Below are positions 12,941 through 29,502 of a stretch of DNA of 36,819 nucleotides, in pieces (within the stretch, counting starts at the first letter, position 1; each line of letters begins with the position of its first letter). The DNA is from Opitutales bacterium. Its GTDB lineage: Bacteria > Verrucomicrobiota > Verrucomicrobiia > Opitutales > T3Sed10-336. Position numbers and translations under genes: made by a program. Location: NCBI GenBank assembly GCA_007130045.1, contig SLTG01000017.1, positions 1 to 36,819 of the forward strand, read 5' to 3'. Below the pieces are notes generated by a model, which saw only the letters and a list, made by a program, of their open reading frames with translations, ran no database searches and had not been told where the DNA came from.

Positions 12941-13489
12941 TTACGGTCGGCTCGTGAATTCACCGGGTGCGAATCCGGGATCTTTTTCCCAACCGATACC
13001 GTCGGCCGGTCGAGCTTCGATCAGTCGTCTCGCCGCATCAAGAGCGACGGAGAGATTGGCTGCGGCGCGGGGAGAAAGGCTTTCACTGAAGCCGAAATCC
13101 ACTCCGGGAATCGTAATGAGGACTGCCGCGGGTGTGGCTCCGTACAGTTTCGCGGCGAGCGCGAGGATCTCGTTGGGGCCGCAGTGATGGCTTCGGGGGG
13201 GGGCTGCGGTGCGATTATCGTGCGGTCCCAGAGGGATCACCCGGACTTCGGTCACTGTATCGTTCGCCGCCGTCGCGTCGGCGAATACGGCGCGGGAACA
13301 GCCATGGAGGGCCGAGGCGATCTCCGGAGCAAGCTGGCGAACAGAAAGGGTTTCCACGCCGTCAATGCCCCAGGACTCCACCTCCTCGGCGAGTTTTCGC
13401 CCGGCGCCGTCGTCCCCGCGCAGTTCGTTCCCGTATCCGATTACAAGAGTTTTCTTCCGGCGATCCGGGCTAGTCTCGGGTGCGTTCAT
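12941..13489 (-). CDS. hoxW: Hydrogenase maturation protease (HoxW/HyaD family)
   Basis: This nickel-dependent endopeptidase removes the C-terminal tail of the hydrogenase large subunit after metal insertion. From ATG 13489, preceded by GGAGG eight bases upstream, it is 182 aa. The N-terminal '[15 protein letters not shown]' is the family signature with the acidic metal ligand; '[11 protein letters not shown]' supplies the second acidic ligand and '[11 protein letters not shown]' the histidine. It overlaps the end of hoxH by 20 bp, so production is coupled to that of its substrate. A run of nine G (nine C in the coding strand) at 13195-13203 lies in the middle of the gene; the frame is intact here. 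Confidence 0.92.
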
Positions 13490-14906
13490 CGAGCGTGCCT
13501 CCATCCGGGCCGTACAGAACGACCTGCAGCGGCATTTGGCCGAATGCGTGGGTCGAGCAGCTCAGGCAGGGATCGAACGAGCGGACCCCCGCTTCAATCC
13601 GGTTCAAAAGACCTTCCGGGATGCTGTCACCTTTGATGTAGTGTTGGGCGGCCTGCAGGACGGTGCGGTTCATTGCCAGGTTGTTTTGTCCGGTGGCGAT
13701 GATCAGATTGCACTTCTGAATGAGACCCTGCCGGTCCACGGTGTAGTCGTGGAAGAGGGTACCGCGGGGCGCTTCGCTGGCCCCGACGCCATGGAGGCGG
13801 TTGATGCCGGCATCGGCGCGAACGTGATCGGAAAGCACTTCCGGCTCGTTCAGACCGCTTTCGATTCGTTCGACGGCGGCGAGCATTTCCACCAAGCGGG
13901 CGTAATGGTAGTAAAAGGACGAAGTGACCGGTTTTCCGCCGGAGGTTTGCCGGAATGCCTGCCAGGCTGCTTCGGCCCGGGGCGTCCCCATGCTTTCGCA
14001 GATGTTCAGCCGGGCGAGGGGACCGACGCGGTACATACCCTCCGGGTAGCCGTGCTTTTTATAGTAGGGGAATTTCAAGTAGGACCAGGACTCGACGGCT
14101 TCACCGATATAGGTGCGGTAGTCGCGGGGATCGATTCCGTCGGCGACGATGGCGCCCTCGGAGTCGCCGAAGCGGAGTTTCCCTTCGTAATGTTCCCAGA
14201 CGCCGTTTTCGCCCACCAGGCCCATAAAGAGAGAGGGAAAGTCGCCGAGGGCGGCGGCCTCGGCGGCGAATTTCGGGGCGATTTCCTGAAAGAGGGAGAG
14301 GGCTTTTTGGACGGTTTGGAGGGCTTCGGGAAGGCGTTCGCGAAGGAGGGATCGGTTTTCTTCGGAGAGGGGGGCGCTCACACCGCCGGGGACCGCCCAG
14401 GACGGATGGATCTTTTTGCCCCCGAGGCACTCAATGACGATCTGGCCGAACTGGCGCAGGCGGATTCCCTCGCGGGCCAAGTCCGGCGCCTCTTTCATCA
14501 GACCGAAGACATTGCGGGTGGCGGGATCGCCGTCCATGCCCAGGAGAAGGTCCGGGGCGCTGAGGTGGAAGAAGCTGAGTGCATGGGACTGGAGGAACTG
14601 CCCGAGGTTCATGAGTCGGCGCAACCGGGTGGCTTCCCGGGGGATGGCGACGGCGAGAATATCATCGCCGGCCTTGGCGGAAGCCAGGAGGTGGCTGACC
14701 GGGCAAATGCCGCAGATGCGGCCGGTGATGGCGGGCATTTCCCAGACCGGACGGCCCTCGCAGAATTTCTCGAACCCCCGGAATTCGGTAATGTGAAAAC
14801 GCGCGTCGGTCACGTCTCCGTTTTTATCCTGGTGGATGGTGATCTTGGCGTGGCCCTCGAGGCGGGTCACGGGGTCGATGGTGATCGTTTTGGTATTGCC
14901 GCTCAT
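13470..14906 (-). CDS. hoxH: NAD-linked [NiFe] hydrogenase large subunit HoxH
   Basis: Catalytic subunit carrying the NiFe(CN)2CO site; splits or forms H2. The protein has 478 aa. Ni ligands: L1 motif '[10 protein letters not shown]' with C65 and C68, and C-terminal L2 motif '[15 protein letters not shown]' with C447 and C450. About 25 residues follow H453, the tail expected to be cut off by HoxW. '[16 protein letters not shown]' is the usual N-terminal start of this family. L1 and L2 and the length match group 3d bidirectional enzymes rather than membrane uptake hydrogenases. Its ATG overlaps the hoxY stop (ATGA at 14903-14906). Accessory hyp genes are not in the window and must be elsewhere. 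Confidence 0.97.
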
Positions 14907-15496
14907 TCTCCGTCTTTCGTTTTGGCCGTTTCTTGGCCGGCCGCCGGGTTTATGGCATCCACTTCGGCGGGTTTTTCGACGCCGAGAAGTTTTTCGAGCA
15001 CGGCGCGGATGCGTGCGGCATCCGGGGGGCAGCCCCAGAGGAAGGCGTCAACCTTCACCACTTGATGCACGGGGAGGACCTTGGGCAGCAGTTTGGGCAC
15101 CAAGGGGTGGTCGGACGGAATCCGTCCGCCTGTGTTCGCTTCTTCGATGTAGGCGCGTTTCAGCACATTCTCGGGATCGCCGAGAGGATTGCGCAGGGCG
15201 GTGACGTTGCCGGTGACGGCGCAGTCCCCGAAGGAGACGACCGCTTTGGTTCGCGCGCGCACTTTGCGAATGAGTTCCAGGTTGTCCTCATTGGCGACGG
15301 CGCCTTCCACCAGGACGGCATCGACGTTTTCCGGGTATTCCTTGACGTCGGCCACCGGGCTGTAAACGACATCGGCGAGTTTGGCCAGTTCGAAGAGCCA
15401 TTCGTCGAGGTCGAGAAACGACATGTGGCAACCGGAGCATCCGGCGAGCCAGACCGTTGCGATGCGCGGGCGTCTCTTATTTTCGGATACACTCAT
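14903..15496 (-). CDS. hoxY: NAD-linked [NiFe] hydrogenase small subunit HoxY
   Basis: A 197-aa electron-transfer subunit that binds the [4Fe-4S] cluster nearest the NiFe site. '[20 protein letters not shown]' gives the first Cys-x-x-Cys; '[17 protein letters not shown]' and '[20 protein letters not shown]' give the remaining ligands. No Tat signal and no extra C-terminal clusters, as expected for the cytoplasmic group 3 enzyme. ATG 15496 is chosen because it overlaps the hoxU stop as ATGA and follows GGAG; a start three codons upstream is possible. The gene overlaps hoxH downstream by four bases. Confidence 0.96.
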
Positions 15497-16209
15497 GGGC
15501 TCCACTCCTTCTTTTTCCTGGCGTCTGCGATAAAGCGAATTCGGTCGCGCCGATGTTCCATTTCACCGACGGACGAACCCTTGCGGAAGATAGCGCCAGT
15601 GGGGCAGGCTTCGACGCACTTGGCGCACGAGGTGCAAGTGTCCGATTCGCCCCAGGGCTGATTAAGATCGGTGATTACCCTGGACTTCGTGCCCCGCCCG
15701 GCGACGTCCCAGGTATGGGCGCCTTCGAGCTCGTCGCAAACCCGCACGCAGCGGGTGCAGAGTATGCAGCGGTCCTGGTCGATGCCGAAGCGTTCGTGGG
15801 TGATGTCCACCGAAAGGTCCGGGTGCTGGTAGGAAAAGCGCACATGGTCCATCCCGTTCTCTATCGCGCGGCTCTGAAGTTCACAGTGTCCGTTCGCCAC
15901 GCAGACAGGGCAGATGTGATTCCGCTCGGCGAAGAGCAGTTCGAGAATCATACGCCGGTACCGATTGAGTCTTTCGCTGTCGGTTTGCACCTCCATTCCC
16001 TCGGTTGCCGCAGTGACGCAGGCGGGCTGCAGTCTGGGGGTGCCGGAAATCTCCACGAGGCAAAGCCTGCAGGCGCCGGCGCTGGAGATGCCTTCGAGTT
16101 CGCAGAGCGTTGGAATCTCAACTCCGTTCTCTCGGGCCGCCTCCAGTACGCTGGCGCCCGGAGAAGCGCTGACCAATTCGCCGTTTATAGTGAGCGTGGT
16201 GACTGTCAT
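15493..16209 (-). CDS. hoxU: Hydrogenase diaphorase iron-sulfur subunit HoxU
   Basis: A 238-aa iron-sulfur subunit, homologous to the N-terminal part of complex I NuoG. It links the NADH-oxidising HoxF to HoxY. In order: a plant-type [2Fe-2S] domain ('[19 protein letters not shown]', 'LQPACVT'); a His-Cys [4Fe-4S] site ('[15 protein letters not shown]'); and two classical [4Fe-4S] motifs ('[13 protein letters not shown]' and '[17 protein letters not shown]'). The starts further upstream run into hoxF and are rejected: ATG 16209 overlaps the hoxF stop as ATGA (16206-16209). Length is typical of HoxU. Confidence 0.96.
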
Positions 16210-17837
16210 GTCAGGATTGCCTCTTTGCGAAGCAGGTTTTCGTATTCGTGCCGGAAGAAGCGCAGGGTGCTCATGACCGGATTCGGGGCGGTCTGGCCCA
16301 GTCCGCAAAGACTGGTGTGCCTGACCATGTCGCAGAGATCTTCGAGGAGCGCGAGATCGTCAGGGGTTGCGTTGCCGTCGCAGATCTTCTGCAGAAGCCC
16401 ATGCATTTGGACGGTTCCGGCCCGGCAGGGAATGCACTTGCCGCACGATTCATCCATGCAGAACTCCATGAAGAAGCGCGCGACGTCGACCATGTTCGTC
16501 TTTTCGTCCATGACGATCATTCCGCCCGACCCCATGATTGAGCCGAGGGCTGCCAGGGACTCGTAATCGACCGGAGTATCGAGGTGTTCCGTCGGAATGC
16601 AGCCACCCGACGGACCGCCTGTCTGCACGGCCTTCACCCGGCCATCGGGAATGCCGTCTCCCATGTCTTCCACGATTTCGCGCAGAGTGATTCCCATTGG
16701 CACTTCGATAAGGCCGGTGTTCCGGATCTTTCCGGCCAGGGCGAAGACCTTGGTTCCTTTGCTCTTTTCGGTTCCCACCGATGCGAACCAATCGGCCCCA
16801 TTGCGCAGGATCGGCGCCACGTTGGCGAGCGTTTCAACATTGTTGATCAGGGTGGAATGCCCCCAAAGTCCGTGTTCGGCCGGGTAGGGGGGCCGCGGGG
16901 TCGGTGCTCCCCGTTTACCTTCGATCGATGCCATCAGCGCGGTTTCCTCACCGCAGACAAACGCGCCCGCACCGATGCGAAGATCGACATTGAAATCGAA
17001 TGGCGAGTCCATGATATGGCCCCCGATCAGCCCCATTCGTTTGGCGGACCGGATTGCTGTCTGGAGGCGGTTGATGGCGAGAGGATACTCGCCCCGGATG
17101 TAGATGTAACCCTGGGCGGCGCCGACTGCGTAAGCGGCGATCGCCATTCCTTCAAGCACGCGGTGGGGATCGCTTTCCAGGACGCTGCGATCCATGAACG
17201 CGCCAGGGTCGCCTTCGTCGGCGTTGCAGACCACGTATTTCTTGTCGGACGGCGTCTTGGCCACCAGCGCCCACTTGACACCCGCTGGAAAGCCGGCGCC
17301 CCCGCGCCCTCGAAGCCCGCTTTGCGTGACTTCCTTGAGCACTTGTTCCGGCGTCATTTCCCTCAGGACGTAATGAAGCGCGCGGTAACCGCCGGCTTCG
17401 ATGTAAGATTCGATACGCTCCGGCTCGACCCAGCCGCAGTTCTCGAGAACGATCGGTTTCTGGCGGGAGAAAAAAGGGTGGGAACGATCGGCGACCGGGA
17501 TATCGGCGCGACCCCCGTCGACGATTGCACGGATGACCGGCGCAACGTCGTCAGGTTGGACGCTTTCATAAAGAACGGCGTCTTTCAATTGGTCTCGCCG
17601 CCCTCCTCCGTCCGCCACGCGGACGAGCGGGCCGCGCGAGCAGAGTTTCATGCAGCCGACGCTGCAGACATCGACACGCCCGTCGATGGCGGCCACCTTG
17701 ACTTCCGCGCGAAGATTGTCGAGGACGGCCTGGGAGTTCGAGGACAGGCAGCCGGCCGCGGTGCAGCAGGAAACGCGAATCGGTTTCCTGCTCTTCCGTT
17801 CCTTTTCCGCGATGGCTTGAAGTTCATTCTGGTCCAT
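16206..17837 (-). CDS. hoxF: Hydrogenase diaphorase flavoprotein subunit HoxF
   Basis: A 543-aa FMN/NAD(H)-binding subunit related to NuoF. An N-terminal thioredoxin-like [2Fe-2S] domain has C25, C30 ('CCTAAGC'), C62 and C66 ('VGCMKLC'). The FMN/NADH part carries '[17 protein letters not shown]', '[16 protein letters not shown]', '[20 protein letters not shown]' and '[10 protein letters not shown]'. The [4Fe-4S] N3-type site is '[13 protein letters not shown]' with the late Cys in '[13 protein letters not shown]'. The N-terminal 2Fe-2S extension is typical of HoxF and of NADP-reducing HndC-like proteins; the neighbours HoxE, U, Y, H settle the identity. NAD versus NADP preference cannot be read with certainty. 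It begins inside the last 14 bases of hoxE. Confidence 0.96.
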
Positions 17838-18366
17838 TTTTCACCTCCCACTCATTCAACTTTTCGAGTGCGTCTTCCGGGGATTGCCGGCCGGCGACCT
17901 CTCCGTCGTAGACGACCGCCGGGGCGATACCGCAGGCACCGAGGCAGCGCGCCGTCGAGATCGTAAGATTTCCGTCCGGCGTTGTCATGCCATCCTTGAT
18001 ACCGGTGGCCCCCTCAACGGCGGCGAGGACCGAGCCGGCCCCCTTGACGTAGCAGGCGGTTCCCATGCAGACCGAGCAACTGTGGAGTCCCCGCGGTTCG
18101 AGCGTAAAGAAATGGTAGAATGTCGCGACACCGTAGACCCGGCTCGGAGGGAGCTTCAGGGCATGGGCGACAAACAGGAGGAGGTCACTCGTAAGATACC
18201 CGAAGAGCCCTTGTGCGCTGTGGAGGACTTCAATCAGCGCATCGGGCTGGTACCGGAGCTTCTTCATCGAAGTCTCCAGCATCGTAAAACGGTTGTCACC
18301 GCTTGGGTGATTCCCGTTCTTTTGCCGGGAGTTGGCTTTGGAGGGTGCGTTGGCTTCGGTTTTCAT
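17824..18366 (-). CDS. hoxE: Hydrogenase subunit HoxE (NuoE-like)
   Basis: A 180-aa [2Fe-2S] protein related to complex I NuoE. The cluster is bound by '[14 protein letters not shown]' (Cys-x4-Cys) and '[11 protein letters not shown]' (Cys-x3-Cys). The N-terminal '[20 protein letters not shown]' strongly resembles the start of cyanobacterial HoxE, which supports the upstream ATG at 18366 over internal ATGs. HoxE is present in cyanobacterial-type and many other group 3d enzymes and is thought to add an electron-transfer branch. It is the first hox gene, 53 bp after hupE, and overlaps hoxF by 14 bp. Confidence 0.95.
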
Positions 18367-18419
18367 CAGCGAGCTGCATTTTATGTGAAACTTTCAACCT
18401 CGATCTTGATCTGAACCAG

Positions 18420-19034
18420 TTACGACAGACGGACCGGGTGTCGCGCGGGAAAAGCCCGGCGGAGCATCAGGCCGAATCCGACGCCCGCGGAGTGAACGAC
18501 GAGCGTTCCCGCGAGAAAAGCGCCCCAATAAGCGGGATGCCCGGCGATTGCGGTTTCGAGCCCGTGTGCGTACCCGTGGAAGATTGAGAAGAACGCCGCG
18601 AGGATCACGGCCGTTCGCAGCGTGGCTTCGGTTGCGCGCAAGGCGAAATATCCAAGGACGAAGACCGAGGCGAGCACGCCGGTTTCCGCAATGCCGGCGC
18701 CTGCGCCGATTCCGGCGAAAAGGGCTCCCGCAACGAGGAAAGTGACGAAGAATCCGGGAACGATGCAGAGCGCCCGCCCCCCCATCCGTCCGGACCAGAT
18801 TCCTATCGCCAGCATCGCGAGGAGGTGGTCCCAGCCGGTGAGCGGGTGAAGAAAGCCGTGTGCCGGGTTGCCTCCCCATTCGTGTCCAGGGTGTCCGTAC
18901 GCCGCTGCCGGCAGAAGCAGAAACACAGTGGTGATCGCTCCGGCGGCTTTCAGAATCGACTGCGGGGCGGTGGTGTTACGGCGACCGAATGGACACGGGG
19001 TGGGCGGAGCAAAAGGTCTGTTTCCGGTATTCAT
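18420..19034 (-). CDS. hupE: HupE/UreJ-type nickel permease
   Basis: A 204-aa membrane protein with about six spans that supplies nickel for the hydrogenase. After a hydrophobic signal-like stretch comes 'HPGHEWGGNPAHGFLHPLTG', then 'WDHLLAMLAIGIWSGR': the conserved HPGHE and H-P-(L/F)-x-G-x-DHLLAM motifs whose histidines and aspartate are thought to bind nickel. 'FFSIFHGYAHGLE' carries the second family motif (F-x-h-x-H-G-x-A-H-G). The first 25 or so residues before the signal segment are polar, so the true start might be further downstream. First gene of the hox operon on this strand; 258 bp separate it from the MFS gene. Confidence 0.92.
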   Translation of the reverse strand: MNTGNRPFAPPTPCPFGRRNTTAPQSILKAAGAITTVFLLLPAAAYGHPGHEWGGNPAHGFLHPLTGWDHLLAMLAIGIWSGRMGGRALCIVPGFFVTFLVAGALFAGIGAGAGIAETGVLASVFVLGYFALRATEATLRTAVILAAFFSIFHGYAHGLETAIAGHPAYWGAFLAGTLVVHSAGVGFGLMLRRAFPARHPVRLS

Positions 19035-21062: not shown

Positions 21063-21758
21063 ATGCCTGAAGGAAAACATATAGTAATCACCGGAACGAC
21101 CCGCGGATTGGGGCGGGCGTTGGCGAAGGAGCTGGCGCGCCTGGGGCACCGGGTGAGTGGTTGCGGGCGTTCGGAGGAGGCGGTCGCGAAAATAAACGGG
21201 GAAGGTTCCGGCAGGGAGCACCACTCAGCGGTGGACGTCACCAGCGAGGCGGACGTTGTGGAGTGGGCGGAGGAGCGAACCGCCGCGGAGGGGCCGCCCG
21301 ATTTCCTGGTCAACAACGCCGGGCTCATCAACCGGCACGCACGACTGTGGGAGGTGCCGCCCGAAGAGTTCAAGCGAATTTGGGAGGTGAATGTTTTTGG
21401 GGTCTTCAACGTCTGCCGCGCGTTTCTCCCGAGAATGGTTGCGCGGAAAAAGGGCGTGGTTGTCAATGTCAGCACCGGCGCCGGAGTGAAAGGCTTTCCG
21501 GAGATCGGACCTTATTGCACAACGAAGCACGCGGTGGAGGGGCTGACCAGGAGCCTTGCCGAAGAACTCCCCGCCGGAATGGCGGCGATTCCGTTTCAGC
21601 CGGGAGTGGTCCGGACCGAAATGCTGCGCAGTCATTACGGCGCCCGGGCGGAGGAATTCCCGGAGCCCGAAACCTGGGCGAAAACCGCCGCCCCGTTCCT
21701 GTTGAACCTTTCCGCCAAAGAAAGCGGCCGGTCGATCCGGCTTCCGCAGGCCCGATAG
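21063..21758 (+). CDS. Short-chain dehydrogenase/reductase (SDR)
   Basis: A 231-aa classical SDR. The cofactor site 'VITGTTRGLGRALAKELARL' has the T-G-x3-G-x-G pattern. 'FLVNNAGLINR' is the NNAG strand; 'VVNVSTGAGVKGFPEIGPYCTTK' region (residues about 137-161) contains the catalytic Ser, Tyr and Lys (S...Y-x3-K). The following 'PGVVRTEM' is the usual segment after the active site. The cysteine/arginine after strand 2 ('SGCGRSEE') is compatible with NADP(H). The substrate is unknown. It is divergent from the MFS gene. It is on the opposite strand to the lipid cluster about 1 kb away, and a role as its missing ketoreductase is speculative. Confidence 0.9.
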   Translation: MPEGKHIVITGTTRGLGRALAKELARLGHRVSGCGRSEEAVAKINGEGSGREHHSAVDVTSEADVVEWAEERTAAEGPPDFLVNNAGLINRHARLWEVPPEEFKRIWEVNVFGVFNVCRAFLPRMVARKKGVVVNVSTGAGVKGFPEIGPYCTTKHAVEGLTRSLAEELPAGMAAIPFQPGVVRTEMLRSHYGARAEEFPEPETWAKTAAPFLLNLSAKESGRSIRLPQAR

Positions 21759-22019: not shown

Positions 22020-22394
22020 ATGTCAAAGTCTGATAATGCGAGAAATGTTATGGGCGGGCCCCTGCGCACCTGTTGTACGGCTCCGATGACGGGGTTTTAT
22101 CGAACCGGAAGGTGTCAGACGGGGTTGGAGGATCTGGGCGCTCACGTGATTTGTGCGGAATTGACCGATGCCTTCCTTGCGTTCAGCCGGAAAGCGGGCA
22201 ACGACCTGAGCACGCCGCGACCCGAGTTCGGTTTTCCGGGACTGCGGCCCGGCGATCGTTGGTGCCTGTGCGCGTTGCGTTGGATGGAGGCCCTTGATGC
22301 CGGTGTAGCCCCGCCTGTTGTTCTGTCCGCCACGCACGAGGGAGCGCTCGAGTTCGTTTCCCTTGAAGAATTGCAGGCGCACGCGTGCGGTTAG
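22020..22394 (+). CDS. DUF2237 family protein
   Basis: A 124-aa soluble protein. 'NARNVMGGPLRTCCTAPMTG' and 'FYRTGRCQTGLEDLGAHVIC' form the N-terminal half, with 'FLAFSRKAGNDLSTPRPEFG' and 'FPGLRPGDRWCLCALRWMEA' in the middle: the diagnostic DUF2237 sequence with conserved Cys, 'GNDLSTP' and 'GLxPGDRWCLC'. The end is 'VVLSATHEGALEFVSLEEL'. The family is widespread and uncharacterised. ATG 22020 gives a complete domain. Converges with the MMPL exporter gene 170 bp further on. Confidence 0.92.
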   Translation: MSKSDNARNVMGGPLRTCCTAPMTGFYRTGRCQTGLEDLGAHVICAELTDAFLAFSRKAGNDLSTPRPEFGFPGLRPGDRWCLCALRWMEALDAGVAPPVVLSATHEGALEFVSLEELQAHACG

Positions 22395-22564: not shown

Positions 22565-24811
22565 TTACCTGGCACTGGGGAAATTCTTTACGAGTGTGAG
22601 GAGGAAGGCGAAAAGGATTGTGCAGGCGACGGTGAAGCCGAGTGCTTTGACGGCGGGAATGGCGCTTGTTGCGAGGATTCCGAAGACGCCGAAAGTCGTG
22701 AGGGCGGAGAGGGGAACGGAGGCTGGTAGGTTGCCGCCGGCGCGGCGTTGTTCGGTGGCGAAGAGCGCGTAGTCAAGTGCGATGCAGGTTCCGAGAAAAA
22801 GACCGATCAAATGGAAGAGGTTGAGGTGTTCGAAGAACAGCGAGGCGGCCCCGAGCGTGGCGCCCGCTGCCATGACCGGTCGAAGCAGGCAACTGCAGGT
22901 CTGTTTCCGATACACCAGAAAGACAATCGCAGCGAGGACGATGGAACCGGCGAGGATGAGGCGGGTTGAGGATTTCCGGTAGAGAGCGAAGGAGGCGTTG
23001 AGGGTTTCCAGTTGTCGGACCGGTTGAACAAAAGGGGGCAGGTCGTTGACCTGGTTTCCCGTCGCCTCCCGCCTGACGAGGATCCAGGTCAGGCCGGGTT
23101 CGACGTGCAGCAGTATGGAAAGGGGTGTCGGAAGGCTTTTGGCAAGATCCTCCACCTGTCGATTGTAACCGGCTGCGGAGGGACGCTTTTCCATGTAGGC
23201 CGCCCAGTCGGTTTCAAAGGGCGAGAAGGCGTCGAGTTCGTACTCGTCCGCTTCCAGTTCGTCGCGCAGGTCGGAGAGAAACGGAACGGAACGGAAGAGT
23301 TCCCATGCGGCTTCGGATCGCGACTGGAGTGGAATAAGTGCGCCGAGCGCACCGGCGTCGCCGGGATCGTCGCCGAGCCAACGGCCCAGGTTGACCCTGG
23401 TTTCGGCGGGATTCGGTCCGACGACGAGATAATCGACGGTGTTATTTTTTGGGGGGGTGAACGGATCGCGGACCATCCGATCCCGTTCGTGAAGTTCGGG
23501 ATGCGGGTAGTCGAGCTCGCGGATATCGTCGTGCCATGACACATTGAATACGGCGACCGCGGCCAGGAGAATAAGCGGAAGTGCAGCGGCGGAGGGCAGC
23601 AGGGAATAAGGACGAAAGCGCGGCGTCAGCAGAGGGACACGGACCGGGTCGGGGTACAGGCGTTTCAGAAGAAGTCCGAAGAAGAGGGCGGCGATGAGAC
23701 CGCAGACCGTGAAGGCGCCGACCTGATTGAGCAGCGGCAGTTTGGAAAGAAGGAGGAAGGCGAAACCGCCGGCGGTTGAAACCGCACCTGTGAGAAGCGG
23801 ACGAAGCAGGTGCTTCTGCGACACGGGGGAGGGCTCGTGCAGGAAGATATGGAGGCCGTAGTCGATCGCAACGCCGACTAGAATCGCGCCGATCACCAGT
23901 GTAAGGATATGCACGGATTGAAACACCGCGAGAGCCAGGAACAGGGCGGCGGCGAGTGCGAGTGCCATGAGAGCGACGAGGAGCAGAACGAGGCGGGTTT
24001 GGCGAACGAAGAAGCTGATGATGGCGAGGACAAAGAGAAAGGTCATCAGATTGAGTCGCGTGACTTCGGCCTGGATTCGTGTCCGGCTGGCGTGGGCGAA
24101 GGGGGCGACGCCGGTGTAGTCGAGGACCAGGTCGGGCTGTTCGTCCCTTGCTTTCCCGTGAGCGTGAGCCAGCGCTTCGAAGACCGGCGCCTGGCCGGCC
24201 GGCTCGAGCGGGGACTCCTTTTGATTGATCCAGTAGAGTTTGCGGAAGGGCGGTCCGGTCCGAGGCGCTGCGGGAAAATCCTCCATTACGCCCGGCACAA
24301 GGAGAAATGGGTCGTGGGGAATGACGTCGGCCGCGTGATACGAGGCGGGATCCTCGAGGAAGGCTTCGAGTTCCTCGACAACCCTTGCGGCAATGATGGC
24401 GGAGGGAGGCGCATCGGATTCCCATCCGGGGAAGTGCGTGTCGAGCCAACCGGGAAGGAGCCAGGAGAAGCGGTTCCTGTGGATCACGCCCGCGGCGTCT
24501 CGAAGCAACTCCTCGGAGTGCGGTTTGACGTGTTCGATTGCGGGGTGGGTCGCGAGGCTCTCTTCGAAGGCCCGGACGGCGGCGGAATCGAGAGGGAGCT
24601 CTTCGGGATGCGCCAGGATCGCGAGCAGAATCCGGTTCCGGGCGCCTTCAATGAGTTCACGGGCGATCCGGGCATCGTCTGTGTCGGCCGTCTCAGGCAG
24701 CAGACCGAGAATGCGGGTTTCCAGGATCCGGTCCCAGGGAATGAAAACGGCCGGCGAAATCACGACGGCCAAAAGGAGAACGACGATCAGTCCGGACAGG
24801 GAACGTTTCAT
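22565..24811 (-). CDS. MMPL/RND-type exporter of the lipid/polyene cluster
   Basis: A 748-aa inner-membrane exporter of the RND/MMPL type. One span at about 5-22, a large periplasmic loop, then five or six spans from 'LNLMTFLFVLAIISFF', containing 'GAILVGVAIDYGLHIFLHEP' with the conserved G-x3-DY motif. A second loop and membrane block follows, with 'GLFLGTCIALDYALFATEQR' holding the equivalent D-Y. Such a protein is a regular member of aryl-polyene and related lipid clusters and is thought to carry the product to the outer membrane. Start: ATG 24811 overlaps the stop of the LolA-like gene (24808-24811), so the two are coupled. There is a T6/G7 homopolymer around 23446-23459; the frame is intact. 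Confidence 0.88.
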   Translation of the reverse strand: MKRSLSGLIVVLLLAVVISPAVFIPWDRILETRILGLLPETADTDDARIARELIEGARNRILLAILAHPEELPLDSAAVRAFEESLATHPAIEHVKPHSEELLRDAAGVIHRNRFSWLLPGWLDTHFPGWESDAPPSAIIAARVVEELEAFLEDPASYHAADVIPHDPFLLVPGVMEDFPAAPRTGPPFRKLYWINQKESPLEPAGQAPVFEALAHAHGKARDEQPDLVLDYTGVAPFAHASRTRIQAEVTRLNLMTFLFVLAIISFFVRQTRLVLLLVALMALALAAALFLALAVFQSVHILTLVIGAILVGVAIDYGLHIFLHEPSPVSQKHLLRPLLTGAVSTAGGFAFLLLSKLPLLNQVGAFTVCGLIAALFFGLLLKRLYPDPVRVPLLTPRFRPYSLLPSAAALPLILLAAVAVFNVSWHDDIRELDYPHPELHERDRMVRDPFTPPKNNTVDYLVVGPNPAETRVNLGRWLGDDPGDAGALGALIPLQSRSEAAWELFRSVPFLSDLRDELEADEYELDAFSPFETDWAAYMEKRPSAAGYNRQVEDLAKSLPTPLSILLHVEPGLTWILVRREATGNQVNDLPPFVQPVRQLETLNASFALYRKSSTRLILAGSIVLAAIVFLVYRKQTCSCLLRPVMAAGATLGAASLFFEHLNLFHLIGLFLGTCIALDYALFATEQRRAGGNLPASVPLSALTTFGVFGILATSAIPAVKALGFTVACTILFAFLLTLVKNFPSAR

Positions 24812-25497
24812 GAATGGGGAGGAAAGAACCTGTCCAGCTCCCGGGGGCTCCACCCGGGATGAAGCTCGATGTCTTCAATCGAAAACTCGACGCGCCGGTT
24901 CGGGGTCTGGTGAATGATAATCTTCTGAATCCGCGTATCCGATCCATGCATTACGATATTCATCAGGACATCGTCGAGATCATTCGAAACGGGGTCGAGT
25001 TCGAGGCGCCATTCGGTATTCCGGTATTCACCGGAGAGGCGGAAGGTTTCGCTTATCCATTTCTGGTCCCATTGGACGAGACGGCTGACCGCGATGATGA
25101 GATTTCGGGCGTCGCCCGGGAGGTGGACGTTTTCGGGAGTTCCGCCGGTGGCGTCGAAAAGAGTATTGTCCCGTATCAGAAAAAGCCGTTCCCGCCGTTG
25201 GAGGTAATGGAATGCGACGCCGTGGTCCGCATGGAAGCGGAGCACGCCGGAAAAGCGTTGGGCGGTGCCGCGGAACGCCTGGTAACGTGCTTCGCTGAAC
25301 TGCGCCGAGAACGAAGAGACCGATTGCAGGTGTTCGAAAAGCGCATCCCATTTGCCGGCCGGGACAAGCGAATGACGAACGCCACCTTCACCCGAGGCGG
25401 ATGCGGTTAAGACGAGGGCCAGGGAAAAAAATCCGGCCGTCATTGACCGTATCAGGGAAAGTGCGCGCATTCCAGTTGCTTTGTTTCGCTGTTGCAT
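24808..25497 (-). CDS. LolA-like outer-membrane carrier of the lipid/polyene cluster
   Basis: A 229-aa periplasmic protein. A signal peptide (MRALSLIRSMTAGFFSLALVL, then TASASGEGG) is probably cut after 'TASA'. 'SVSSFSAQFSEARYQAF' and 'FSGVLRFHADHGVAFHYLQ' match the LolA first strands. Later segments contain 'YRNTEWRLELDP' and 'IIIHQTPNRRVEFSIEDIEL', as in the LolA-like members found in aryl-polyene clusters. It likely shuttles a lipid across the periplasm with the MMPL exporter. Start: ATG 25497 follows AGGA; a start at 25470 would give a more standard signal peptide and is possible. Gap of 61 bp to the glycosyltransferase gene. Confidence 0.8.
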   Translation of the reverse strand: MQQRNKATGMRALSLIRSMTAGFFSLALVLTASASGEGGVRHSLVPAGKWDALFEHLQSVSSFSAQFSEARYQAFRGTAQRFSGVLRFHADHGVAFHYLQRRERLFLIRDNTLFDATGGTPENVHLPGDARNLIIAVSRLVQWDQKWISETFRLSGEYRNTEWRLELDPVSNDLDDVLMNIVMHGSDTRIQKIIIHQTPNRRVEFSIEDIELHPGWSPRELDRFFPPHS

Positions 25498-25558
25498 TTC
25501 CTGAATTCCTTAACCCGGAACCCTGCACCCTGTCCCATTCGCGGAAACGGGCGCGGGA

Positions 25559-26398
25559 TCAAGGGTTTTTTGAATCCGTTGTCCATGCCCGACGGTACTT
25601 CAGGTACGGAATCAGGCGCAAGAGGAGAAGTTCCGGGATGAGGCGGACGTGCATAAAGGTGAGTTTGATGTTGTCGCGCAGGTAGTTGAAATGCGAGATG
25701 CCGCCTTCTTCGCGCGTTGGATAGCGAACCGGAACCGAAAGTTGCCTGGGATGGTGTCCCATCCAGACCATGCGGACGGCGACTTCAGGATCGAAATCGT
25801 AACCGCGGGCGAAGCGGGTTTGCCGAAACGCCTTGCGGAGTGGTTCGAGGGGGTAAAGGCGCATGCCGAACATCGTATCGCCCAATCCGGCCCCTGGCGT
25901 TTCGAGGGTGGTGCACCACAGCGTGAGTTTGCGTCCCTTCAGGCGGATGAAGGGCACATCGGGACCGAAGACAGGATTGCCCATGATGAGGTCGTCCGGG
26001 AAGCGCTCGCCGAGACGGAAAAATTCCGGAATGTGATCCGCTGGATGCTGGCCGTCGGCGTCCATGGTCAGCACATGTGTAAAGCCCGCTTCGATGGCGG
26101 GCTCCAGGCCGTGCAGAACCGCGGTTCCCTTTCCGCCGTTTCGTTCCCGCCGGAAGACTCTCAACTGGTTTGGGGCCTGTTCACGCAGCGGCTCCAGCGG
26201 GCGTTCGCTGCCATCGGTAGAACCGTCGATCACAACCCATACCGAATGAGGGACCGCGTGCGCGAGCGCGCCGGAAACCGTTTCGGGCAAGAGTCGGCCC
26301 GTGTTGTACGAGGGAATAAGGACGAGCGGTTTAAACGGGTTGTTCATGGCTGTCTTGAATTGGCGTCCGGGGGCGTACTTGAAATCTTCCGAACTCAT
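25559..26398 (-). CDS. Glycosyltransferase family 2
   Basis: A 279-aa GT-A fold glycosyltransferase. 'FKPLVLIPSYNTGRLLPETV' is the nucleotide-binding start, 'VVIDGSTDGSERPLEPL' the first acidic motif and 'LTMDADGQHPADHI' the metal-binding D113-x-D115. 'GYDFDPEVAVRMVWMG' precedes the catalytic region, as in dolichyl-phosphate-mannose-synthase-like enzymes. No obvious membrane anchor, though the tail 'LLLLRLIPYLKYRRAW' is amphipathic. ATG 26398 overlaps the acyltransferase stop as ATGA (26395-26398); an internal ATG at 26347 is also possible. Similar genes occur in aryl-polyene loci, where they may glycosylate the lipid head. Confidence 0.9.
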   Translation of the reverse strand: MSSEDFKYAPGRQFKTAMNNPFKPLVLIPSYNTGRLLPETVSGALAHAVPHSVWVVIDGSTDGSERPLEPLREQAPNQLRVFRRERNGGKGTAVLHGLEPAIEAGFTHVLTMDADGQHPADHIPEFFRLGERFPDDLIMGNPVFGPDVPFIRLKGRKLTLWCTTLETPGAGLGDTMFGMRLYPLEPLRKAFRQTRFARGYDFDPEVAVRMVWMGHHPRQLSVPVRYPTREEGGISHFNYLRDNIKLTFMHVRLIPELLLLRLIPYLKYRRAWTTDSKNP

Positions 26399-27324
26399 GG
26401 GCGCGCTTCGGGATTCAGGGGCGTGAAATTGAACCAGAGATAGGGATGCTCCCTGAGATGATCTTCGAGCACGGACAGAACCTCCTGGAAATGCGTCCTG
26501 GCTGCGGCGAGCGGATCCTTGTGATCCGCGGGACGGAATACTGCGGAGGTAATCACGGGAATGTTCCCCTCCGGATCTTCGGGGCCGGCGAAGGCGAAAA
26601 CGACCGGACGTTCGAACAGCGTCGCAAGGTGGTAGATTGTGAAGGGGAATAGGCGCCGTTTTCCCAGGAACTGAAACGATTCGATACGTCCTCCGAACTC
26701 GACTCTGTCGCATTGAAGTCCGACCGATATGTTCTGCTCGATGGCGTTCTTGAGGTCGAAAAGGAAATCCTCGGCTCGGTTGATCCAGAGAAAGCGAACC
26801 GAAGGGGAAAACGCGCGACTCATAAAGTCGGTGTCGATGGAGTTTCCCAAGCGGTGCCGCACCAGCGCGATCTTGCGGTCGAAATCGCTTAACATGCAGC
26901 CAATGAGGTCGGAATGTCCGATGTGAAAGGTTCCGAACAGAGCCGGTTCCGGCGACCTGCAAAGCGTATCGAACGGTTCCGACGCGCGGCGATCGGCGTA
27001 ATAAACGGCGGGCCTGATTCCCCGGGCGAGCCGCAGTTTTGCCATGAGCGATCGAGAAAACGCGTAAAAGTGACGGTTGATATCACTCCGGGCGGGAGTG
27101 CGGTCCAGGACGATCCGAAGGTATTCCGCCGACGCCGCGCGCTGCGCGGGCATCACCGACACCGCGAGCGCGGAACCGGCGTAAAGAGCGGGATCGGCGA
27201 TGGCGGTTGGAAGGATACGGTCGCCGAGACCGAGCAGGCGGTAACCCCAGGGCGGCCCGGGATTCCGGTCCGGGCGTTGCCGGGTTGTAAGTTCCACTCT
27301 CAACTTTCCGGATTCTGTTGCCAT
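26395..27324 (-). CDS. LpxL/HtrB-type lipid acyltransferase
   Basis: A 309-aa acyltransferase of the lipid A biosynthesis type. 'GTFHIGHSDLIG' holds the catalytic H-x4-D (H134, D139). 'IALVRHRLGNSIDTDFMSR' and 'LFPFTIYHLATLFERPVVFA' fit the membrane-associated core. 'VGLQCDRVEFGG' resembles the conserved 'D-x-hhxx-G'. The end 'HPYLWFNFTPLNPE' matches the family 'P-x-x-W-h-h-F'. It probably joins an acyl chain made by the ketosynthase pair to a lipid head group. ATG 27324 is preferred to the non-ATG codon 9 bases upstream. Gap of 37 bp to the ketosynthase-like gene. Confidence 0.85.
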   Translation of the reverse strand: MATESGKLRVELTTRQRPDRNPGPPWGYRLLGLGDRILPTAIADPALYAGSALAVSVMPAQRAASAEYLRIVLDRTPARSDINRHFYAFSRSLMAKLRLARGIRPAVYYADRRASEPFDTLCRSPEPALFGTFHIGHSDLIGCMLSDFDRKIALVRHRLGNSIDTDFMSRAFSPSVRFLWINRAEDFLFDLKNAIEQNISVGLQCDRVEFGGRIESFQFLGKRRLFPFTIYHLATLFERPVVFAFAGPEDPEGNIPVITSAVFRPADHKDPLAAARTHFQEVLSVLEDHLREHPYLWFNFTPLNPEARP

Positions 27325-27361
27325 TGAAACCAATACGATGGGAAAAGTCGACTCGGCTGAA

Positions 27362-28045
27362 TTACCCGGTCCATTTCAGCGAGAAACGTCCCGCGGCGGT
27401 GTCCCAGTCGAGTTTCTGGCGGGTCTTGAGTATCCGTCCAAAGTCGTGCAGGGACGGTGATTTCTGAACGAAGGTTGCGTTTGCGGGTTTCGCGGCTGTC
27501 GAAGGAGGAGAGGTGAAAGTAAGCGATCCCATCGCGCGATCCGTTTCGATGGCAAGGAAAAGGGCCCATACGAAAGTTCGGGAGGAGGCGGCGTCGAGGT
27601 CCGCGAGCCAGGTGGCGGCTTCTTCGCCGGCGACGATGAGAACGTCGGGCCGATCGTCCGCGCAGGCAAGGCGGAGGGCGTGACTGAGAATCCCGGCTCC
27701 GCCGGCCAAGGGATAGAGCGCGGTGACCGGGTGCTGATTGAGAATCAATGCCTGCTCGATCCCGCCGGGGTGAATCGAGGTTTGAAAGTATGTGGGGCTC
27801 GGATACGGAAAGCTGCCGAGAAAAGCTTCGAGAGCGAGTGACTCGGTGAAGGTGGTTGTGTAAAGAATTGCGGTGTCGCGGGTGAAAGGCATGCCGCTGA
27901 GCGCTTCTGAAACCAGGACCCCCAGCGGACTCATACGTCGCGCCTGGCGCGGGGGCAGTTTCGTCCTGAACCCCGCGAGCTCCGCCTCGCCGTTTTCGCG
28001 CGTCAATTCGATCGAACGGAAATTCTTTATATAACGCTCATCCAT
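27362..28045 (-). CDS. Degenerate beta-ketoacyl synthase-like protein (chain-length-factor type)
   Basis: A 227-aa protein (start MDERYIKNFRSIELTRENGE) resembling the N-terminal half of a ketosynthase. 'LVSEALSGMPFTRDTAILYTT', 'FPSPTYFQTS' type core ('SFPYPSPTYFQTSIHPGG') and 'PLAGGAGILSHALRLA' match the Ketoacyl-synt_2 type found in aryl-polyene clusters. The nucleophilic cysteine is absent: in the expected place are Ser and His ('TSIHPGG'), and there is no second half with the two histidines. It is therefore taken as a non-catalytic partner of the adjacent ketosynthase. Its start overlaps the ketosynthase stop by eight bases (28038-28045), which indicates coupled translation. Confidence 0.78.
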   Translation of the reverse strand: MDERYIKNFRSIELTRENGEAELAGFRTKLPPRQARRMSPLGVLVSEALSGMPFTRDTAILYTTTFTESLALEAFLGSFPYPSPTYFQTSIHPGGIEQALILNQHPVTALYPLAGGAGILSHALRLACADDRPDVLIVAGEEAATWLADLDAASSRTFVWALFLAIETDRAMGSLTFTSPPSTAAKPANATFVQKSPSLHDFGRILKTRQKLDWDTAAGRFSLKWTG

Positions 28046-29162
28046 AATGAAGCAGCAGGGAAGCGTGGGCGCCGCCGAAGGCGTTGCTGAGCAAAAGGAC
28101 ACTGTCGAAATCCGACGGGAAAAAGGACTCGCGCCGGACATTGGGCGCAAAGAACGGTTCTTGAGAACACACCGTTCCCGGGACCTTCCCACGTTCGATC
28201 GCCTCGGTTGCGAGAACCAGTTCGACGGAGGCGCAACTGCCGAGCGTATGACCGAGAGAACCCTTCCATGAGACGAGCGGGGCGTCCGGGAAGTTCTTGT
28301 TGACTGAGGTGGATTCGAGCTTTCCGGCTTCAAGGGTTCCTGTGCCGTGACCCTTGACCCAAAAGCGGTGATTGCGGGATTTGTCCGCATAAGGGGCGAG
28401 AACAGCGTCGAAGCCCGTGCCGGAAGGTTCGTTGGCTGTAAAGTGAAACATTTCGTTGTAAGTGTTTCCCGGGCCGAGGCGGAAGGGAGAGTCGTCGCGC
28501 GAAAGCACGAGGTAAGCGGCGCCGTCTCCGAGTCCGATAGAACCGGTTTCCCCGTCGCGGTAGGGGGCGGGGAACGATTCGTTGAGAATCTTCAAGGCGT
28601 GAAATCCGGCGGAGACGAAGGGGCCGACATAGTCGAAGGAAAAGATCAGCGCTCGTTCGGCGCGGCCCGTCTTGACGAAACGAGCGGCCTGGTCGATCGC
28701 CAGTTGTGCGGAGACGCAGGCATGGGAGAGGATGAAGTGATTCGCTCCCCAACCGAGCGCTTCACTCAGTTTTTCGACACAACCGTGAGGCGTGGCGAAA
28801 GGGACGAAGCGCGGGTCGCGGTGTTTTCCGAGAGAATACAGGGCGTCGATGCCGTAGTTGGAACTGGCGACGAAAATCGGGTGATCGGGGCGGCCCCACG
28901 GTTCGCCGGCAAGCGGTTGGAGAAAGCGCAAAAGGTCGTCCCACCAGCGCGGAGGGGTCGAATGGCTGAAGGGTTGGCGTAACGCCAGGGGGACGGGATC
29001 GCCGCCTTCGGAGCAGAAAACGGGCGTTGCCTGGAGCGCACTTTCGTTGGCGATAAGGCGATTCCACGTTTCCCGCCCGTCGCCCAAACCGGTCAGGCAG
29101 GCGCGTTCGTGGATGAAGCAGTCCGCCGGACGGATTCCGGCTATGTGTGGCGGCGCGGACAT
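28038..29162 (-). CDS. Beta-ketoacyl-ACP synthase of the lipid/polyene cluster
   Basis: A 374-aa ketosynthase that condenses acyl chains on the ACP. The catalytic Cys is C149 in 'FILSHACVSAQLAIDQAARF', the first histidine is H272 in 'WVKGHGTGTLEAGKLES', and the second is H305 in 'VSWKGSLGHTLGSCASVEL' with the preceding Lys K300. All three (Cys-His-His) are present, so the enzyme should be active. It is shorter than FabF (about 410 aa) and the N-terminal region is variable ('IRPADCFIHERACLTGLGDG'). It is followed immediately by the overlapping degenerate partner and preceded by the ACP 30 bp upstream. The arrangement is that of an aryl-polyene-type KS/CLF pair. Confidence 0.9.
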   Translation of the reverse strand: MSAPPHIAGIRPADCFIHERACLTGLGDGRETWNRLIANESALQATPVFCSEGGDPVPLALRQPFSHSTPPRWWDDLLRFLQPLAGEPWGRPDHPIFVASSNYGIDALYSLGKHRDPRFVPFATPHGCVEKLSEALGWGANHFILSHACVSAQLAIDQAARFVKTGRAERALIFSFDYVGPFVSAGFHALKILNESFPAPYRDGETGSIGLGDGAAYLVLSRDDSPFRLGPGNTYNEMFHFTANEPSGTGFDAVLAPYADKSRNHRFWVKGHGTGTLEAGKLESTSVNKNFPDAPLVSWKGSLGHTLGSCASVELVLATEAIERGKVPGTVCSQEPFFAPNVRRESFFPSDFDSVLLLSNAFGGAHASLLLHYG

Positions 29163-29192
29163 ACAGAAGCTGGAAAGACGGGCACTGATCAG

Positions 29193-29456
29193 TCAGGTCG
29201 CCCGGCCGTGCTTCTTTATATATTCCGCCAGAACCTCGACGGATTCAAGGGCTTTTCGACTCTCTTCACTGCTCCCGATTTTGACGCCAAACTCCTTTTC
29301 CAGCTTCAGGGCGAGTTCCAGGCCGTCAATTGAATCCAGGTCCAGACTGCCGCCGAAAAGAGGTTCCTCGTCGGGAATCTCCTCCGGCTTCACATCCTGA
29401 AGGTTGAGGGTTTCGACAATCAGCTTCTTCAGCCGGATTTTCAATTCGTCTGCCAT
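29193..29456 (-). CDS. Acyl carrier protein
   Basis: An 87-aa acidic carrier protein. The 4'-phosphopantetheine site is S42 in 'GGSLDLDSIDGLELALKLEK', the normal D-S-h context. Helix 1 is 'ELKIRLKKLIVETLNL' and the end is 'ALESVEVLAEYIKKHG'. It is a dedicated carrier for the cluster, being the first gene and lying 30 bp before the ketosynthase. The main fatty acid ACP would usually sit with fabD/fabG, which are absent here. Confidence 0.93.
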   Translation of the reverse strand: MADELKIRLKKLIVETLNLQDVKPEEIPDEEPLFGGSLDLDSIDGLELALKLEKEFGVKIGSSEESRKALESVEVLAEYIKKHGRAT

Positions 29457-29502
29457 CTTGAAAAAAGCACGCCCGGCGGCAGGCGCGCGGTCAAGCCTTT
29501 AA

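Follow-up and report, generated by a model that had tools for sequence, protein, structure and literature searches.

The seven genes and the identity of the ketosynthase pair

The window analysed here, 36,819 nucleotides long, is one entire contig (C23) of the 3.4-Mb genome of an Opitutia bacterium (Verrucomicrobiota), a metagenome-assembled genome (MAG) of 146 contigs and 96.7% completeness. We studied a group of seven minus-strand genes in it, which encode, in order, an acyl carrier protein (ACP), a ketosynthase (KS), a partner resembling a chain-length factor (CLF), an LpxL-type acyltransferase (AT), a GT2 glycosyltransferase, a LolA-like carrier and an MMPL exporter. An earlier note, made from the sequence alone, had seen in them a compact cluster that resembles those for aryl polyenes and lacks several of the usual enzymes. 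Aryl polyenes are cell-envelope pigments and count among the most widely distributed secondary metabolites of bacteria. The seven open reading frames (ORFs) are all present and intact where they had been placed (Table 1), and their order is far from chance: it recurs in about 80 Opitutia loci. For this lineage comparison we used the best 80 loci from a named genome collection, labelled nearly all Opitutia, Opitutales or unplaced Verrucomicrobia; ORFs were delimited by a codon-usage caller.

KS and CLF overlap by 8 bp, AT and GT2 share an ATGA, and LolA and MMPL overlap too. The spacers measure 30 bp (ACP-KS), about 28-37 bp (CLF-AT) and 61 bp (GT2-LolA). Pfam support is direct for ACP, KS and GT2 and weak for LolA and MMPL. 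The CLF and AT of the window gave no Pfam match; in relatives, Ketoacyl-synt_2 was found in 13 of 22 CLFs and Lip_A_acyltrans (PF03279) in 7 of 19 ATs. ACP1 is 49% identical to an ACP of the Moellerella aryl-polyene cluster, and GT2 is 53-54% identical to the GT2s of the Azospirillum and Roseomonas aryl-polyene-type clusters.

Table 1. Positions of the seven genes and of two deletion traces in the window
Feature	Position	Strand	Supporting observations
ACP (ACP1)	29193..29456	-	DLDSIDGLEL 4'-phosphopantetheine site; PF00550 E 6.8e-8; NCBIfam PRK09184 above cut-off
Ketosynthase, ApeO-type	28038..29162	-	C149/H272/H305; Pfam KS match
CLF-like partner, ApeC-type, half-length (220 residues), no catalytic Cys	27362..28045	-	
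LpxL-type acyltransferase (AT)	26395..27333 (likely start 27324)	-	HX4D motif H137, D142; family alignment
GT2 glycosyltransferase	25559..26398	-	DADGQH (DxD); PF00535 1.3e-18
LolA-like periplasmic lipid carrier	24808..25497 (alternative start 25443)	-	Weak PF19574/TIGR00547; position before MMPL conserved in relatives
MMPL/RND-type exporter	22565..24853 (ATG at 24811 is the likelier start)	-	PF03176 at threshold; TIGR00921 1.6e-8; syntenic in relatives
Deletion junction	26395..26398	-	AT stop and GT2 start share ATGA; G003 has a 367-aa PlsC-ApeI gene here
VTT/DedA scar TTAAAGGCTTGA (LKA*)	29491..29502	-	Fused directly to the RecD2 stop; compared with L034, L035, L170

The KS and its partner are an aryl-polyene-type KS-CLF, because their best matches are ApeO and ApeC and the model of the partner finds ApeC first in the PDB. 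The KS family profile matched best the ApeO chains 7f28_B and 6qsp_A, and the CLF family profile was significant only to the ApeC chains (7f28_A, 3.9e-6; 6qsp_B, 1.6e-4). The AlphaFold model of the CLF (pLDDT 89.6, pTM 0.85) gave 6qsp_B (ApeC) and then 7f28_A as top Foldseek matches. ApeC is described as a CLF of half the usual size that has a single thiolase fold (PMC8358021), which fits the length of the window CLF. The aryl-polyene likeness first proposed thus holds by profile for both proteins and by fold for the CLF. The three KS residues named at that time (C149, H272 and H305) are exact and invariant in 21 orthologues, the H and D of the AT motif are invariant in the family alignment, and all invariant positions of KS, CLF and AT are kept in the window; GT2 shows one conservative change (L176M).

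A locus divided over three contigs

Both other species of the genus, G003 and G004, carry orthologues at 70-73% identity, and a quick KS tree places them with the window in one clade (100% support). Orthologues at 48-55% identity occur in 20 further genomes of the order; none was found at E 1e-20 in the five genomes searched from other genera of the same family. The usual order in Opitutia loci is FAD2-FAD1-(VTT)-ACP2-KS2-ACP-KS-CLF-AT-PlsC(-ApeI)-GT2-LolA-MMPL-(ApeP)-AMP-ligase-<chorismatase, where PlsC, ApeP, ligase, chorismatase, FAD, ACP2 and VTT were matched by their Pfam families in the relatives.

Part of this order lies elsewhere in the genome of the window. An AMP-ligase is encoded on contig C31 (C31:25628-26974), convergent with a chorismatase (C31:27448-27765). 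The ligase is 41% identical to the ligase of the G186 cluster and 64% to that of G003; the chorismatase matches PF21168 (E 1.4e-19) and is of FkbO/Hyg5/XanB2 type. FAD1 is on a third contig (C29) and is 68% identical to that of G004. In G004, KS2, ACP2, chorismatase, ligase and ApeP are contiguous with MMPL-LolA, and FAD1 adjoins ACP, so that the scattered pieces belong together; in G003, ACP is immediately preceded by FAD1, FAD2 and VTT, as the end of contig C94 has the same sequence as the beginning of the one with ACP. The pathway of this genome is therefore spread over three contigs, as an aryl-polyene locus that is split and in part eroded.

Of the earlier description, the compact, self-contained cluster falls, since ligase and chorismatase sit on another contig. 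Dehydratase, ketoreductase (KR) and second ACP are indeed lacking, but the AMP-ligase is absent from the window only. The other possibility then raised, a mere split of a classical locus, is borne out in part by G004, where ligase, chorismatase, ACP2 and KS2 share one locus with MMPL and LolA. Class predictions made on single contigs can thus mislead: here the ligase and the enzyme for the starter, "missing" from the window, were encoded elsewhere in the genome. Split loci have a precedent in the arcuflavin pathway of Azoarcus, where two unlinked loci, including a XanB2-type chorismatase and an AMP-ligase, are both required (PMC3949708).

By-eye assignment gave an NAD-reducing [NiFe] hydrogenase operon at window positions 12941-19034 (HoxEFUYH-like, with a maturation protease and a HupE-like protein), and hyp maturation genes on the contig of the ligase and chorismatase (C31; L129 233-6091).

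Losses, relics and selection

Compared with its relatives, this genome has lost PlsC-ApeI, ACP2, KS2, FAD2 and the VTT gene, and ApeP persists only as a deletion relic. No orthologue of PlsC-ApeI was found in the genome, the best matches being ordinary PlsC and FabZ-type proteins, and a genome-wide search for the ApeI/ApeP dehydratase pair returned FabZ-type matches only. We rejected the matches on C10 and C26 as ApeI or ApeP: the first is an LpxC-FabZ-type fusion and the second a FabZ in an Ole-like cluster. That cluster (L139 3643-12404) comprises OleA/OleB-like proteins, an AMP-ligase, the free FabZ, a FabI-like reductase and a CrtISO-like FAD protein. The second ACP and the ApeR-like second KS, present in both congeners, are absent between chorismatase and phosphoenolpyruvate carboxykinase (PEPCK) and have no orthologue elsewhere in this genome; remnants of KS2, ACP2 and Gfo/Idh sought in that interval gave nothing significant. 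The ketosynthases of C79, C16 and C1 are only 28-30% identical to KS2 of G003 and were rejected as its relocated copy. On C1 (L134 6163-10102) a KS shares an operon with an ACP, a CrtISO-like FAD protein and a phosphatidylserine decarboxylase, another small lipid-like cluster. In both congeners a Gfo/Idh/MocA-type oxidoreductase gene stands between chorismatase and ACP2-KS2 (L130 8310-9458, L131 1985-3316); it is gone here along with ACP2-KS2.

Upstream of the ligase, a 69-aa frame (L129 11386-11595), which starts TDDIPLPHGQRARF and later reads PLAEAEF, aligns to ApeP at its two ends (tblastn 8e-7 for the N-part vs G004 and 4e-4 for the C-part vs G003; z about 7 vs shuffles). Judged by this alignment, the frame is what is left of ApeP after deletion of the middle part, at the expected place. 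In the window, TTAAAGGCTTGA matches the last codons of the VTT gene which precedes ACP in G003. With the relic beside the ligase and PlsC-ApeI deleted, the absence of a dehydratase is a real loss. It is also recent in the clade of the window, because G003 has both ApeI and ApeP. In G004 (L035 1-2114), the region beside ACP has likewise lost FAD2 and all of VTT except a C-terminal remnant, so another species of the genus is being trimmed here too.

A MAG in 146 contigs might instead hide the missing genes in its unassembled 3%, in which case the pathway would be split and not reduced. We consider this highly improbable: both halves lie away from the contig ends, the corresponding flanks (PEPCK; DinG-ligase; AT-GT2) meet with none of these genes between them, and the ApeP relic is in place.

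Among relatives, 67 loci have AT and LolA, and in 64 of them PlsC separates AT from GT2. The three without it (L179, L207, L231) are on other branches of the quick KS tree, which makes independent losses of PlsC probable. In L207 and L231 the locus was reduced independently and all frames are open; for L207 only about 290 bp upstream was available, and genes may lie further upstream there. L179 was rejected as an intact parallel: at 14165-17755 its MMPL and ligase show frame changes, from assembly error or decay, the rest of the reduced locus being open. Two other variants were seen. In L231 (8722-10161) a B12-binding radical SAM protein is encoded between MMPL and ligase, with same-sized gaps in L225, L241 and L251. 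A mini-cluster of only KS-CLF-LolA follows a cysteine desulfurase gene in the Opitutaceae loci L206 and L209 (9953-12463), with a short-chain dehydrogenase/reductase (SDR) gene about 2 kb off, and L044 belongs here too; this KS-CLF may be repurposed.

The ten remaining genes of the pathway all have open frames. Between species, the dN/dS of all retained genes is about 0.1-0.25 against 0.07-0.11 for the FabF and PEPCK controls, rough ratios as synonymous changes are near saturation. The KS branch is hardly longer in this genome than in G003; those of ligase, chorismatase and CLF are somewhat longer, as is that of FabF. The remaining genes are thus under purifying selection, which favours a working, reduced pathway without proving it, because genes selected until a short time ago and then lost to use would give much the same ratios. 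Indeed, the pathway could be dead or dying here, polyene synthesis having been halted by the loss of ApeI, ApeP, ACP2, KS2 and PlsC while the other genes have not yet decayed. The relic by the ligase, the loss of ACP2 and KS2 between chorismatase and PEPCK, the VTT/FAD2 and PlsC-ApeI deletions and the frame changes of L179 all point that way. But such decay seems unlikely to us given the open frames, the conserved core active sites, the dN/dS values and the short KS branch, and given that most Opitutaceae loci are without ApeP as well.

Ketoreductase, proposed pathway and known systems

FabG and the KRs of control clusters served as KR probes; with FabG, the KRs of two control aryl-polyene clusters come up at 1e-49 to 1e-53. 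With these probes no KR was found inside any of the 80 Opitutia loci, and SDR genes appeared only outside the locus bounds, in three of them. The missing cluster KR is therefore a property of the order: its absence, correctly noted at first, is not special to this genome. An SDR gene of the window (21063-21758) was rejected as the missing KR: it is generic, not conserved beside the G003 cluster, and its matches to the control KRs (1e-9 and 3e-17) are weaker than that of the genome's own FabG (1e-50). A small protein judged by eye to be DUF2237-like is encoded between it and MMPL (22020-22394). For the thioesterase (ApeK), the control probe had no match in the 80 loci or in the contigs of this genome that were examined; the whole genome was not searched. 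Of the 54 loci holding MMPL and ligase, 9 have a gene labelled as ApeP, and in about 25 the gap between these two genes is too short for it.

We think it probable that the seven genes serve elongation, attachment and export as the core of an aryl-polyene pathway of Opitutia, xanthomonadin-like and chorismatase-fed, whose locus is in three pieces and trimmed, with the remaining enzymes still selected. Most likely, with decay or a changed product as serious competing readings, the pathway still works with FabG and FabZ, the genome having FabG-AcpP-FabF (C58), LpxC-FabZ (C10) and the free FabZ (C26). The chorismatase of C31 would provide hydroxybenzoate, which the AMP-ligase would load onto ACP; KS-CLF would elongate the chain with malonyl units, host FabG and a FabZ reducing and dehydrating it on each turn. 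The acyltransferase would then move the chain onto a lipid, GT2 would modify the head group, and LolA and MMPL would bring the lipid to the outer membrane. A KS2-less pathway is plausible since ApeO-ApeC alone made full-length polyene (PMC8358021). The earlier idea of a reduced pathway drawing on central fatty-acid enzymes is thus the best functional reading. Gene identities, the split, the losses, the ApeP relic and purifying selection are observed; the starter, the recourse to FabG and FabZ, the sequence of the steps and the polyene product are what we infer.

Several points weigh against it. FabG of A. baumannii was unable to replace the cluster's own KR (ApeQ) in vitro (PMC8041823), and most core ape deletions in E. 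coli abolish pigment, apeR perhaps excepted (PMC8253772). The ApeP relic means that function was lost at least once in this very pathway, and with an assembly in 146 contigs, about 97% complete, a missing gene could sit in a gap. In the literature found, no paper covers the gene content of Opitutia loci or names a product for one of them.

The core might also now yield a different, non-polyene aryl or acyl lipid, KS-CLF extending an aryl or acyl starter and AT-GT2-LolA-MMPL attaching and exporting the product. Such a change would agree with the retention of both modules, the loss of both dehydratases and KS2, and the KR-less loci of the lineage. It appears quite improbable: ligase and chorismatase are kept and selected, which makes an aryl starter still likely, FabG/FabZ-type enzymes are present, and nothing points to a non-polyene product.

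Returning to the polyene pathway, a wider proposal is that the whole order makes aryl polyenes without dedicated KR or thioesterase, and mostly without dehydratase, by recruiting primary FabG/FabZ to ApeO/ApeC-type KS-CLFs; this genome, left with one KS-CLF and one ACP besides a starter module at a distance, would be an extreme and still functional case. We advance this tentatively, as a possibility to which we give somewhat less than even chances. With the Acinetobacter work, where FabG is no stand-in, set against a lineage that has no detectable cluster KR and a genome in it that has lost the dehydratases too, it becomes directly testable what enzymes of primary metabolism a KS-CLF is able to use.

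As a cluster, the set lacks the dehydratase pair, the KR and the second ACP and KS of the aryl-polyene family. It has the ApeO-type KS with a half-length ApeC-type CLF, an AT/GT2/LolA/MMPL module with homologues in control clusters, the AMP-ligase (on C31) and a chorismatase with the ligase. The aryl-polyene clusters of Proteobacteria (Xenorhabdus, Acinetobacter, E. coli ape, and the control on Moellerella plasmid pW1-a) share with it ApeO-ApeC KS-CLF, ACP, GT2, LpxL-type acyltransferase, LolA, MMPL and AMP-ligase. In contrast to them, there is here no KR, methyltransferase, ApeI, ApeP, second ACP or ApeR-like KS, no thioesterase was found in the loci and contigs searched, the locus is split, and a chorismatase accompanies the ligase. 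Dialkylresorcinol genes (DarA, DarB) were not seen near the core; no genome-wide search was made for them. Xanthomonadin and arcuflavin clusters (PMC3949708) share the FkbO/Hyg5-family chorismatase beside an aryl AMP-ligase, GT2, LolA and an exporter, and Azoarcus likewise has two unlinked loci; here, however, no KR or dehydratase accompanies the core, and the gene order is that of Opitutia. The plasmid cluster of Azospirillum ramasamyi (NZ_CP029832, L264) shares GT2 (53% identical), FAD oxidoreductase, PlsC, CLF, KS, MMPL, LolA and AMP-ligase but, unlike the window, holds fabG and a dehydratase inside the cluster. Finally, for the Opitutales isolate ASA1, Congregicoccus parvus, an antiSMASH 'arylpolyene' region is reported as a class prediction only (PMC12193912); the isolate belongs to the same order as the window organism, and the region is probably of the same family of loci.

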